Virus record (IMG/VR): IMGVR_UViG_3300044951_000816
Span: 1-30,374 of that record
Source of the DNA: a virus
Reading direction: 5' to 3' (one strand)
Length of the DNA stretch: 30,374 nt
Positions 23,814-27,400 of the stretch are shown one piece after another (the stretch's first letter is position 1; each line of letters opens with the position of its first letter). The position numbers and the translations under genes were made by a program. The notes under the pieces are model-generated. The model was not told the DNA's origin, did no database searches, and was given only the letters and a program-made list of their open reading frames with translations.

Positions 23814-25178
23814 TTACAAAATATTTTTAAACATGGATTGAATAAATATCGATAATCCTGCTAAACAGTCCGGGGCGTCGTCATTTTTATTGCGTCCCTC
23901 CTTTGAATAACTAACTAAATTTTCAATAAACAAATGATTTTCGGGTGCTTCAGTTTTGACAAAAATAATTTTATTTTGGATCCAGGACGAATTCATTATT
24001 ATTCGCGTTTCTTTGTTTGTGGTGTTATGAACTTGTAAAATTCTAGTCGTTGGTGTTAACTTTTGCAATTGACGACTAAACATTGCACCCATTGAATTCG
24101 ACTCGACTCGACAATATGCCGTATTATGCTCGTTTAATTTTCCTGCACATTTTGGTAACGTTGTGTCCGTGTTTTCCCTGCTAAATACGTAATCGACTAA
24201 ATACAATTGTTTGTTGATCAAAGCGCAAACGGCTAACGCTGTAAAATCTTTACCCTGGTCCGCGACATCAATATACGCTAACGTACCGTCGATTGTATTA
24301 TTTGCTTTTATCTCGTTAAAATCCTGCTGAGTAATAAAATTTAAATTGTCAAATAAACGCCCCTGAATATCGACCGGGCTTTGTTGGTATTCCGCCATCC
24401 AAATATCCGGGTTCGTTCGTTTTTTTTTCTCCAAATATTCATCTGTCGTCATCACATTTTCGCAAAACGATTCCATTTTATCAGTTAAGGCGCTTACTAT
24501 TATAGATTTTTCATAAATTCCCTGCTCAATATTCACTCCGATAACGTCTTTTAAACTCCAACGGGTGCCAATATCAATACGGGCGCAACCACTTTCAAAG
24601 CGTGAGTCGTGAGTCGATTGCTTCCATTGTAAAATACGGTCGTTTACGGTGTCGCTCAAAGCGTCCTCGAGCCCCCTGTAAAGATCATCGGTAATCGCAA
24701 CTTTCGTTGCACCAAAACCAATAATCGTACCGCCAACTCCTGCGCCAAAATATCCAACTTGCTTCGAATAGTTAGTATTCCACCCTTGTAAATTTGCTTT
24801 ATCGTCGCTCAATCTAACATTTGGAAATACAACCTTAAATTTATCGCTTTTAACTATCGTACGGACGTCGTAACTAAATTTAATATATAAGGTAGCGGTA
24901 CACGTGTTACGCATTACTGAGTCGCTTGGATTGCGTCCTAACGTCCACGCACAAAATAAGCTAGTGATATACGATTTTCCTGCTCGTGGTGGCATGGATA
25001 CCGACAACGATTTTATTTTACCCTCCTCAACTTGCTGAAACGCTTCCGCAATTTCCTGTAAAAATTTTCTATTGGTAAAAAAATCAAAATCGATATACAA
25101 ACAAAACGCCCAAAATTCTCGACGACATAGCTCGATTTGTAGCGCTTTTTTAAGTTCGTTTTTTTGATCATTATTCAT
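23814..25178 (-). CDS. terL: Terminase large subunit (454 aa)
   Basis: The ATPase domain has SMPPRAGKS (Walker A, K68) and VAITDD (Walker B, near 160-165) after a GTIIGFGATK segment. The nuclease domain starts with LAYIDVADQGKDFTALAV, whose first Asp is the metal ligand of an RNase H-like fold, and ends with NDDAPDCLAGL. The size fits TerL (about 450-550). It overlaps the DUF5681 gene by eight bases. It drives DNA into the prohead and cuts the concatemer. Confidence 0.95.
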   Translation of the reverse strand: MNNDQKNELKKALQIELCRREFWAFCLYIDFDFFTNRKFLQEIAEAFQQVEEGKIKSLSVSMPPRAGKSYITSLFCAWTLGRNPSDSVMRNTCTATLYIKFSYDVRTIVKSDKFKVVFPNVRLSDDKANLQGWNTNYSKQVGYFGAGVGGTIIGFGATKVAITDDLYRGLEDALSDTVNDRILQWKQSTHDSRFESGCARIDIGTRWSLKDVIGVNIEQGIYEKSIIVSALTDKMESFCENVMTTDEYLEKKKRTNPDIWMAEYQQSPVDIQGRLFDNLNFITQQDFNEIKANNTIDGTLAYIDVADQGKDFTALAVCALINKQLYLVDYVFSRENTDTTLPKCAGKLNEHNTAYCRVESNSMGAMFSRQLQKLTPTTRILQVHNTTNKETRIIMNSSWIQNKIIFVKTEAPENHLFIENLVSYSKEGRNKNDDAPDCLAGLSIFIQSMFKNIL

Positions 25179-25518
25179 TAGATAAAAAGGCTTTTATTTC
25201 CTCCGTCGTTAATTCGCTTAGATCAACTGTCGTTTGTTGCTGTTCAATTTGCTGAACGGGTGCGCCGTAACCTGAATCCATTAACGCTTTGTATGCGTTT
25301 ACGTCTCCGTCCCTGGCTTTTTTGATTAACGCCAACGTCATTAAATCTTCTTGCGACATCGTTTCGTTTTGCCCTGTAATTGGGTTTTTTGAATTTTGGT
25401 TAACTTCTAACCATTGCCGGGCGATTGTGCTTCGGTTTTTAGATCCTTTTGGGCGTCCGTTTGGGTTACCGCTCTCGCCTTTATCCCAATTTGGTTTTAA
25501 ATTATTTTCTTTTGGCAT
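25171..25518 (-). CDS. DUF5681 protein, probable small terminase subunit (115 aa)
   Basis: The N-terminus GESGNPNGRPKGSKNRST is the hallmark of DUF5681, with an AT-hook-like GRP core that should contact the DNA minor groove. A helical middle (EDLMTLALIKKARDGDVNAY, then KALMDSGYGAP) follows, and an acidic tail ends the protein. Its overlap with the large terminase gene fits the small subunit that recognises phage DNA. The family has no proven role in general, so the terminase function is inferred from order. Confidence 0.8.
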   Translation of the reverse strand: MPKENNLKPNWDKGESGNPNGRPKGSKNRSTIARQWLEVNQNSKNPITGQNETMSQEDLMTLALIKKARDGDVNAYKALMDSGYGAPVQQIEQQQTTVDLSELTTEEIKAFLSNE

Positions 25519-25538: not shown

Positions 25539-26441
25539 TTATTTAAACTTTCTTTGATTAGTAAATTTAATATCCTCGGCGTATGTATTCCAGGCTAAAT
25601 TCGAAACGTTATCGGTCTTAATTAGTTTAGGATATAAATAACGGCTTTTTATGTGGTGGTGTAATCGTCCTCCGTTTTTTTCTTGTTTTTCTGCATGAAT
25701 AGCGGACGGAAATTGAATAACGCAAACAAGTGATTTGTTTAATAATTTACACTCGTTGTAAAGATCAGTTAATCCGCCTTTTGCCTTTGCCGATGGCGTT
25801 TGTTTTAAAAATAATCCGTCCCCTAACGAACCCATAAATAAACCCTCATTCATTATACCGACAAATTGACTCGTGTCGTTGTCCTGAACTCCTTTTTCGC
25901 CTCTATAAATAAAATTCGTGTTAATAAAAGTCGTATTCATTACTTTATTTCGTAAAAGTTTTTTATTCGTTCCTCCTATTGCGTCCCCTGTTTGACTTAT
26001 TCCGAAAATTCCTAATTGCTGCCGTAACATGAATTCCTTAATACCTTCGAATACGTTAAAAATATCTTCGAAATTTGCTAGTCTTCTATATTTACCCATG
26101 TATTTAATTTCGTAGGCGTTTGTGTCGTCGTCCTGGACGATATAAAAATCTATATTTAAACTTTTGGCAATATCGTAAAACATATTTCTCGCCTGTCCCG
26201 CACTTCTCCGTGATACGCTAGGTCGGTGGACGTAATCAAATTTTTGTCTCGCTTCATTCATGTTAAAAATATGCAAGTTAAAACCTTTTTTATTTGATTC
26301 GTTTTTATATAGATCAATATCGTCCGTTTCATCGTCGATAAATACATGAATATTTTTATTTTCCCAACCGATTTTTAAAAAATAATTTACAGTCTTTAAA
26401 TTGTCCGACCTGTGATATGACGGAATAAAAATATCAATCAT
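25539..26441 (-). CDS. TET-associated/GREB1-type glycosyltransferase, putative DNA modification enzyme
   Basis: The protein has a GT-A-like start (MIDIFIPSYHRSDNLKTV) with the strand-helix of a nucleotide-sugar fold. It carries a metal-binding acidic motif IVQDDDTNAY (D104-D106), a helix with SAGQARNMFYDIA, and later GISQTGDAIGGTN and GVQDNDTSQF. I recognise this as the TAGT type of glycosyltransferase, described in phages alongside base-modification enzymes. It overlaps the ParB-like gene by eight bases. The likely substrate is a hydroxylated or otherwise modified base in phage DNA, but no base hydroxylase is visible in the window, so the acceptor is unknown. Confidence 0.65.
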   Translation of the reverse strand: MIDIFIPSYHRSDNLKTVNYFLKIGWENKNIHVFIDDETDDIDLYKNESNKKGFNLHIFNMNEARQKFDYVHRPSVSRRSAGQARNMFYDIAKSLNIDFYIVQDDDTNAYEIKYMGKYRRLANFEDIFNVFEGIKEFMLRQQLGIFGISQTGDAIGGTNKKLLRNKVMNTTFINTNFIYRGEKGVQDNDTSQFVGIMNEGLFMGSLGDGLFLKQTPSAKAKGGLTDLYNECKLLNKSLVCVIQFPSAIHAEKQEKNGGRLHHHIKSRYLYPKLIKTDNVSNLAWNTYAEDIKFTNQRKFK

Positions 26442-27156
26442 TCCAACCGTTTATTAAATTGTGAACTCGTAATAAATCGTCTTCGATAAATCCATTAATT
26501 CCGTTATCGCACAAAACTAATCTTAAACGTTCAATTACATTTTTCTCGTCTTCGTTTGCGTTAAAAAAATAATAATTTGCTACATTTTCAAAATCAATTT
26601 TAATAAATCTATACGCAAATAAAGTAAGTATATTTTTTTGTTCTTCGTTTAGTTTACTATCGTTTATTAATTTTATTTTTTGATTAAATTTTGTTAAATC
26701 TAAGCAATCAATTAATGTAATATTTGGTTTTTCTTCAGGAATATAATATACGTCTTCGAACTGTACATTTGATAAATCTTCCGTTGCTGAATTAACGGGT
26801 AAATCTAAACCCCATTCGTCCAATTTATCCGTGTTCCATTCATTCGCTAATAGATCCCAATCCCATTCGCCAAAACCGACATTATCTTTTACGATAAATT
26901 CGTCCTTTTGATCCTCGGTTAATTCCGCAGCCTGGACGATAAAAATTTCTTTTAATCCAACTTCAATACACGCCTTTAAACGCATATTTCCACCCAATAC
27001 GATATTATTCTCGTCTACTACTATCGGCCTTAATTCCAACATCTGCGGAAACTCCTTAATTGATTTTACCAACTTTTTAAACTTATCGTTTTTTATTAAA
27101 CGTGGGTTTTTTGGGTTTGTTTTAATCTCGGATATCTTTACTTTTTTAACTTGCAT
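26434..27156 (-). CDS. ParB/sulfiredoxin-fold protein with phage-type C-terminal domain (240 aa)
   Basis: Residues 1-120 are a ParB N-terminal-like domain: ISEIKTNPKNPRLIKND, then RPIVVDENNIVLGGNMRL, where G55-G56-x-x-R59 is the ParB box, and a DNVGFGEWDWDLLANEW helix. This type is usually fused to a DNA methylase, but here no methylase follows. The C-terminal 110 residues (KNILTLFAYRFIKIDFENVA, NYYFFNANEDEKNVIERLRL) resemble a domain seen in phage ParB-type modification proteins (YYAxAxxExQxLME pattern). It partners the glycosyltransferase. It may bind DNA or NTP. Confidence 0.7.
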   Translation of the reverse strand: MQVKKVKISEIKTNPKNPRLIKNDKFKKLVKSIKEFPQMLELRPIVVDENNIVLGGNMRLKACIEVGLKEIFIVQAAELTEDQKDEFIVKDNVGFGEWDWDLLANEWNTDKLDEWGLDLPVNSATEDLSNVQFEDVYYIPEEKPNITLIDCLDLTKFNQKIKLINDSKLNEEQKNILTLFAYRFIKIDFENVANYYFFNANEDEKNVIERLRLVLCDNGINGFIEDDLLRVHNLINGWND

Positions 27157-27400
27157 AAAATAAATATTGAATTATTTTGATAATTAAATAAATTATCGTA
27201 AAGGTAATAACTCGAATAAACGAATTAACAACGCCTGTCGTAGTTTCAAACCACCTTTTGAGCGTTATAGTATCCAACCAAAAAAAAGCGGTTAAAATCA
27301 ATCTATCCGCGAAATAAACGCAAGTAAATAACGGGAGGAGTAAAACCCCAACCGTTATTTTTAATACTTGTATAATTTTAATTTTTGTTAATGCTTTCAT
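27146..27400 (-). CDS. Small membrane protein (84 aa)
   Basis: Two membrane segments are evident: ITVGVLLLPLFTCVYFADRL, probably with a following hydrophobic TAFFW, and FIRVITFTIIYLIIKIIQYL near the C-terminus. Between them lies a basic stretch (LKRWFETTTG). The gene overlaps the ParB-like gene by 11 bases and precedes it in the same transcript. A role in superinfection exclusion or membrane association would fit a phage, but nothing in the sequence decides this. Confidence 0.65.
   Translation of the reverse strand: MKALTKIKIIQVLKITVGVLLLPLFTCVYFADRLILTAFFWLDTITLKRWFETTTGVVNSFIRVITFTIIYLIIKIIQYLFYAS

Follow-up and report, generated by a model that had tools for sequence, protein, structure and literature searches.

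The window analysed here, a 30,374-nucleotide stretch of viral DNA (IMG/VR record IMGVR_UViG_3300044951_000816), carries two overlapping genes, one for a ParB-like protein and one for a glycosyltransferase of the TET-associated type (TAGT). The locus raises the question of what such a pair modifies when no recognisable enzyme for making a modified acceptor base accompanies it. TAGTs were first predicted to glycosylate modified bases in phages, and their genes were often found near ParB-type genes. An earlier note, made from the sequence alone, had proposed that the two proteins form a functional pair that adds sugar to the phage DNA. Read along the minus strand, the gene for the ParB-N protein is followed by those for the TAGT, DUF5681 and TerL; the features of the locus are:

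26434..27156 (-): gene for the ParB-N + PART adaptor protein, 240 aa (PF02195)
26872..27156 (-): ParB N-terminal domain (ParB/Srx fold), residues 1-95 (structure model)
26980..26994 (-): GGNMR nucleotide-loop motif of ParB-N, residues 55-59 (sequence)
26461..26784 (-): PART domain, all-helical, C-terminal, about residues 125-232 (HMM)
26434..26441 (-): 8-bp overlap of the ParB-PART and TAGT genes (ORF coordinates)
25539..26441 (-): gene for the TAGT-family GT-A glycosyltransferase, 300 aa (PF20691, phrog_842)
26124..26135 (-): QDDD metal-binding motif, TAGT residues 103-106 (D104-D105 invariant)
25875..25877 (-): Asp189 of the TAGT, candidate catalytic base (invariant in A10)
25656..25661 (-): His261-His262 pair of the TAGT (invariant in A10)
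25171..25518 (-): DUF5681, probable small terminase (PF18932, 3e-15)
23814..25178 (-): terminase large subunit TerL (phrog_38, 1.8e-76)

The gene pair and the domains of its two proteins

The eight-base overlap of the pair and the position of DUF5681 and terL directly after it, both described in the earlier note, were borne out by the coordinates and profile matches listed above. DUF5681 occupies the position annotated as 'terminase small subunit' in loci L058 and L070, and overlap or near-contact of the ParB and TAGT genes is retained in relatives. On the upstream side, window positions 27146-27400 encode a probable membrane protein of 84 aa that occurs in only a few close relatives; the end of its reading frame overlaps the start of the ParB gene by 11 bp.

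The assignment of the glycosyltransferase to the TAGT family held in an HMM search, in which the protein matched PF20691 with an E-value of 2.1e-9 (38.1 bits, above the curated cut-off of 27.5) and phrog_842, 'beta-glucosyl-HMC-alpha-glucosyltransferase', at 2.3e-21. The conserved acidic metal motif and the other catalytic residues are present. The QDDD sequence that had been noticed earlier occupies residues 103-106, and its D104-D105 are invariant across T6-type TAGTs, the partnered clade and the window clade; Asp189 falls at the position of the 'ED' acid in other TAGTs and may, judging from the alignment, serve as the catalytic base. A fold prediction, proposed as a check in the earlier note, gave a GT-A fold in a model of moderate confidence (pLDDT 68). 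The six best matches of this model among viral models (BFVD fold search) all carry a TAGT domain, the lowest E-value being 1.4e-13, and its matches among solved structures (Foldseek, VIA) are GT-A enzymes, the best being GnT-I (Z 11.1).

The T6 TAGT puts glucose on glucosylated hmC (available text of PMC13216743). The window TAGT shares with the T2/T6 enzymes (PF20691) the GT-A fold, the catalytic DD, the ED-type acid, ARN and HH, whereas the window phage, unlike T2 and T6, lacks an hmC pathway. In the tree, the window's TAGT clade, from Bacteroidota, is very divergent and sits on an extreme long branch with 100/100 support, and transfer of function from T6 is therefore weak.

The partner protein matches ParB_N (PF02195) with an E-value of 7.8e-6 and a score exactly at the cut-off of 26.3, in agreement with its earlier assignment to the ParB family. 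The model of its N-terminal domain superimposes on CTP-bound ParB structures, with a Z of 13.3 and an rmsd of 1.6 A across 90 residues for 7bnr. Sequence and profile search likewise confirmed a ParB box, GGNMR, in a protein without a methylase domain, as had been claimed; G56-N57 of this motif are invariant in A1 and A4. While the GGNMR loop is kept, the second nucleotide motif is altered, with an ENxxR-type motif not recognised by eye. The match to TIGR00180 reached 25.3 bits against a cut-off of 58.45 and covered residues 3-92 only.

The earlier note overlooked a second conserved domain of the ParB protein, which is C-terminal and tied to the TAGT. We refer to this previously unnamed helical domain by a label of our own, PART. 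Residues 125-232 had no Pfam match, no Pfam or NCBIfam model for PART was found, and a search of the PDB with its sequence gave no credible match. PART takes the place of the central HTH and the C-terminal dimerisation domain of partition ParB, both of which are absent, and this replacement rules out a canonical plasmid-type ParB. The protein thus resembles ParB/Spo0J/Noc in its N-terminal fold and differs from them in carrying PART, and no ParA ATPase was found among the window proteins scanned, which were part of the window's total. PART is usually fused to ParB-N and sometimes free-standing, as in L064, L129, L145, L153, L155 and L158. In Vibrio phage SRILMA (195 kb), a free 139-aa PART without ParB-N is encoded directly upstream of the TAGT (L064:4450-4869), and in L048, L049, L051 and L058 the ParB-N domain is swapped and the C-terminal domain retained.

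Conservation of the pair and the occupants of its slot

Among 56 IMG/VR relatives with TAGT identities of 54-97%, a ParB gene lies directly upstream of the TAGT gene wherever the contig has room, the two genes overlapping or standing at most 3 bases apart. Since the pairing is conserved in these 56 loci and in Porphyromonas phage 005b, it is not due to chance. Similarity in terL was seen in far fewer of the 56 relatives than the ParB-TAGT pair. The functional pairing suggested in the earlier note is thus supported by conservation that exceeds that of terL or the other neighbours, and the terminase, whose large subunit diverges while the pair persists, is ruled out as a member of the module.

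A second set of 80 IMG/VR TAGT loci showed the pairing again. In total, a PART gene was found directly upstream of the TAGT gene at 132 of the 133 loci that had room for it. The script detected 131 of these; the remaining one, L060, was added because there the script had taken a TAGT start that was too early. In two of the 132, L153 and L155, a single methylase-like gene separates PART from TAGT; in the sole exception, L137, PART lies 3.2 kb upstream. The viruses concerned have hosts among Bacteroidota, Firmicutes, Actinobacteria, Proteobacteria and haloarchaea. Removal of near-copies (>90% TAGT identity) left 62 pairs. The PART HMM matched only ParBs beside a TAGT, with no match in ParB-MTase, ParB-DUF4417, ParB-GNAT or ParB-TET proteins, and a tblastn search of 50,697 phage records with free PART returned 28 records, all from TAGT phages. 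No PART accompanies the T6-type TAGTs of two Aeromonas phages; the window TAGT differs from them in having a PART-ParB partner, and the T6-type is split off by a long branch.

Within the window clade, mean distances were 0.53 for TAGT, 0.58 for PART and 1.47 for ParB-N; PART thus matches TAGT in conservation and exceeds ParB-N. TAGT distances correlated with those of PART at r 0.92 (partial 0.89 given ParB-N) and with those of ParB-N at 0.57 (partial 0.19); the r of 0.92 stems largely from the split between clades, the window clade alone giving 0.63 for TAGT-ParB-N and 0.53 for TAGT-PART.

The order ParB-TAGT-terS-terL is found in Porphyromonas phage 005b, in the Lactobacillus phages jlb1/JNU_P11 and c5, where the c5 cassette starts 90 bp from the cos site, and in E. 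coli P22-like phages. In Nocardia NTR1 the TAGT gene stands directly before terL. HHTV-2 (Haloarcula) retains the pair with terL about 3 kb away, and the Vibrio SRILMA pair (L064) lies far from the terminase and is adjoined by a helicase gene.

What else occupies the slot beside a phage ParB was surveyed at 80 loci picked by ParB-N similarity alone. PART was present in 8 of these loci, all with a TAGT. The ParB was fused to N6_N4_Mtase in 25 of 69 cases and to DUF4417 in 2 of 69. The next gene (n=55) encoded a TAGT in 9 cases, N6_N4_Mtase in 6, SAM synthetase in 5, radical SAM in 3, Mom in 2 (best 1.2e-53) and a C5 methylase in 1, and many of the next-gene proteins had no informative family. 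ParBs without PART adjoin or are fused with methyltransferases, Mom, TET/JBP and other enzymes, and in the cases checked their cassettes lie just before the terminase. Prochlorococcus phage MED4-184, for example, has the order ParB, FkbM methylase, TET/JBP oxygenase, terL. That the slot of the TAGT elsewhere largely holds DNA-modifying enzymes is our main argument, one of association and not proof, that the TAGT acts on DNA; together with the exclusivity of PART and TAGT, it speaks for a TAGT that acts on DNA and is guided by ParB-PART. The closest parallel in layout is offered by phage ParB-methyltransferase fusions (phrog_498 type), in which ParB-N, usually encoded immediately upstream of terS-terL, is coupled to a DNA-modifying activity; unlike these, the effector here is a separate glycosyltransferase joined via PART. 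The obligate pairing, the PART/TAGT link and the sharing of the slot were computed directly, as were the families and the intact catalytic residues.

Several loci of these surveys depart from the minimal arrangement. In MED4-184, the gene at L077:5274-6059 (NC_020847.1 17129-17914) is labelled 'queuine tRNA-ribosyltransferase'; it matches Tet_JBP (3.4e-6, below the curated cut-off), and queuosine/7-deazaguanine chemistry was rejected for this phage on that ground. L210:826-3291 encodes a ParB with a different C-terminal adaptor, a radical SAM enzyme and a T6-type TAGT, and has no PART. The tail of this ParB resembles the N-terminal extension of the T6-type TAGT of Aeromonas phage Ah1 (E 6e-8) and, by this likeness, appears to be a second adaptor that follows the same logic. 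L145:5607-9191 holds two tandem PART-TAGT pairs, which possibly add two sugars in turn; a radical SAM/SPASM gene comes directly after them, and an N6/N4 methylase gene lies upstream. At L199:5738-8115, the TAGT has ~180 extra N-terminal residues with a P-loop-like motif at the start, and a radical-SAM-like gene with CxxxCxxC follows it (both motifs by eye). A class I methyltransferase domain is fused to the TAGT at L137:6001-7719, and a class I methyltransferase-type gene lies between PART and TAGT at L153:4701-5468; methylation of the sugar is a possible role for both. At L164:5513-6187, the gene directly after a phage ParB has ABC/AAA-like P-loop matches, and similar genes, encoding about 225-235 aa, recur in L172, L179, L195, L198 and L201.

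The likely substrate and rival readings

The earlier note had pointed to the absence of an oxygenase or base hydroxymethylase from the window, and profile searches agreed, finding no TET/JBP, thymidylate-synthase-type or C5-methylase family there. Among TAGT records, PF12851 was found in 0 of 56, with the positive control detected, PF00303 only in the Vibrio phage (195 kb), where it is annotated thymidylate synthase, PF00145 in 2 of 34 and radical SAM in 2 of 56. A relative with a TAGT 89-90% identical to that of the window, IMGVR_UViG_3300042485_002443 (about 35.3-35.4 kb), is complete, as its 127-bp terminal overlap indicates; its 45 scanned ORFs matched 14 Pfam families, with no base-modifying enzyme among them. 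The annotated gene lists of the complete phages c5 and jlb1 likewise hold no oxygenase, hydroxymethylase or C5-methylase. The suggestion that phage genes outside the window make the acceptor is thus unlikely, none being recognisable in the complete relative, c5 or jlb1.

The window TAGT resembles the solitary TAGT homologues, without alpha- or beta-GT, reported from 288 of 753 phage genomes (PMC13216743, NAR 2026, available text), whose function that 2026 survey calls undefined. The available text of PMC13216743 does not mention a ParB or adaptor domain; PART is described here.

The tetramer composition of the phage genomes bears indirectly on how much of the DNA could be modified, with the proviso that palindrome avoidance reflects past hosts and restriction history. 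In the window, 4 of 16 palindromic tetramers fell below half of expectation, as against 2 of 240 other tetramers (observed/expected: CGCG 37/126, AGCT 20/55, GGCC 18/47, CCGG 27/60). The complete relative gave 0/44 for CCGG, 0/39 for CTAG, 1/33 for GGCC and 4/42 for CGCG. Avoidance was similar or stronger in G020, G024 and HHTV-2, and none was seen in NTR1; in the T6-type Aeromonas TAGT phages, 1 of 16 palindromes each fell below half, and in Vibrio SRILMA one. A sugar coat over the genome should leave little pressure from restriction. Because palindromes are strongly avoided, a whole-genome shield is disfavoured and a sparse mark or a role away from DNA is favoured. Of the proposal that the pair sugar-modifies the phage DNA, the DNA role is supported by the context of the slot (N6/N4 methylases, Mom, TET/JBP), and a protective coat over the whole genome is not.

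We favour sparse, ParB-targeted DNA glycosylation. According to this model, to which we assign a probability of roughly 50%, the TAGT and the DNA-targeting ParB-PART adaptor form one machine that puts sugar on DNA at limited sites around packaging. PART would bind and position the TAGT, and the ParB-fold domain would bring it to the phage DNA, probably close to the packaging end or at recurring sites. The TAGT would then move sugar from a host nucleotide-sugar to the DNA at these sites, either while the DNA is packaged or shortly beforehand. Cassettes that combine ParB with a methylase, Mom or TET in the same slot presumably act likewise, each with its own chemistry. We infer the physical binding, DNA as the substrate, the site-limited action and a benefit to the phage. 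More tentatively, the minimal pair of ParB-PART and TAGT might glycosylate an unmodified DNA base directly, with a host nucleotide sugar, no hydroxylation and sites chosen by ParB, although we know of no such transfer of sugar to an ordinary DNA base.

Genome-wide hypermodification as in T4/T6, with most copies of one base sugar-coated as a shield against restriction, would suit the membership of the TAGT family and a slot common to DNA-modifying enzymes. Complete relatives, however, have no hydroxymethylase, TET or C5-methylase, and the window and the complete relative strongly avoid palindromes, unlike the T6-type TAGT phages; we consider such a shield very improbable. It is less strained, but still doubtful, that the host, or a phage enzyme that escaped recognition, supplies a modified base as the acceptor and that the TAGT carries out the classical second step. 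Known TAGTs use pre-modified bases (PMC13216743, available text), and some cassettes include extra enzymes, either radical SAM (L145, L199, L210) or a methylase-like domain (L137, L153). Against this, the cassettes share no accessory gene, and c5, jlb1 and the complete relative make do with the minimal pair; the host range, moreover, spans bacteria and archaea and so makes a common host-made base unlikely.

Two further readings draw on the terminase genes. The TAGT may be directed at a protein, be it terminase, portal, capsid or ParB-PART, with ParB-PART as scaffold or substrate; the adjoining terminase genes, a GT-A fold common to protein and polysaccharide glycosyltransferases and the lack of a DNA acceptor pathway point this way. 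We nevertheless judge it quite unlikely, given the pairs far from the terminase in Vibrio SRILMA and HHTV-2 (terL about 3 kb), the DNA methylases, Mom and TET/JBP in the same ParB slot, and nearest viral folds that are TAGT proteins. The pair may instead leave a packaging mark confined to the pac/cos region: the complex would glycosylate that region, or simply occupy it, and so control cutting by the terminase, a role that methylation plays at the pac site of P1. The gene order shared by phages of Bacteroidota, Lactobacillus and E. coli and the c5 cassette beside cos are consistent with such a mark, and an otherwise unmodified genome would fit the avoidance of palindromes. The PART-TAGT of L064, however, is far from the terminase, and since the cassette has been lost in some isolated phages (KC5a, Ld17/LL-Ku/Ld25A) it is not essential for packaging; this reading seems unlikely to us.

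Distribution in E. coli and losses of the cassette

The cassette is present, as prophage, in 885 of 5426 complete E. coli genomes, or about one in six, counting those with at least 80% of it in one place. PGAP names the E. coli TAGT 'GREB1-related protein', and ynaK of K-12 (b1365, prophage Rac, L242:6878-7141) is an 87-aa ParB-N stump of the cassette; a literature search on ynaK, phage GREB1 and ParB-TAGT found nothing useful. The obligate PART partner sets apart a large class of TAGTs and offers a mechanism of targeting through a ParB fold and an adaptor. The cassette predicts sugar-bearing DNA without a hydroxylase, which can be tested in laboratory strains because intact E. coli copies and the K-12 stump are at hand. 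If true, direct glycosylation of an unmodified base would span bacterial and archaeal viruses.

The cassette has also decayed in other phages. KC5a retains the ParB stump only, a frame change in phage phiLdb (L079:848-1713) splits the TAGT into two ORFs, and the related dairy phages Ld17, LL-Ku and Ld25A hold remnants. These losses show that phages can do without the cassette in some conditions, as one would expect if it served counter-defence. An allelic swap of effectors between jlb1 and KC5a was ruled out, since KC5a has no more than the ParB stump.
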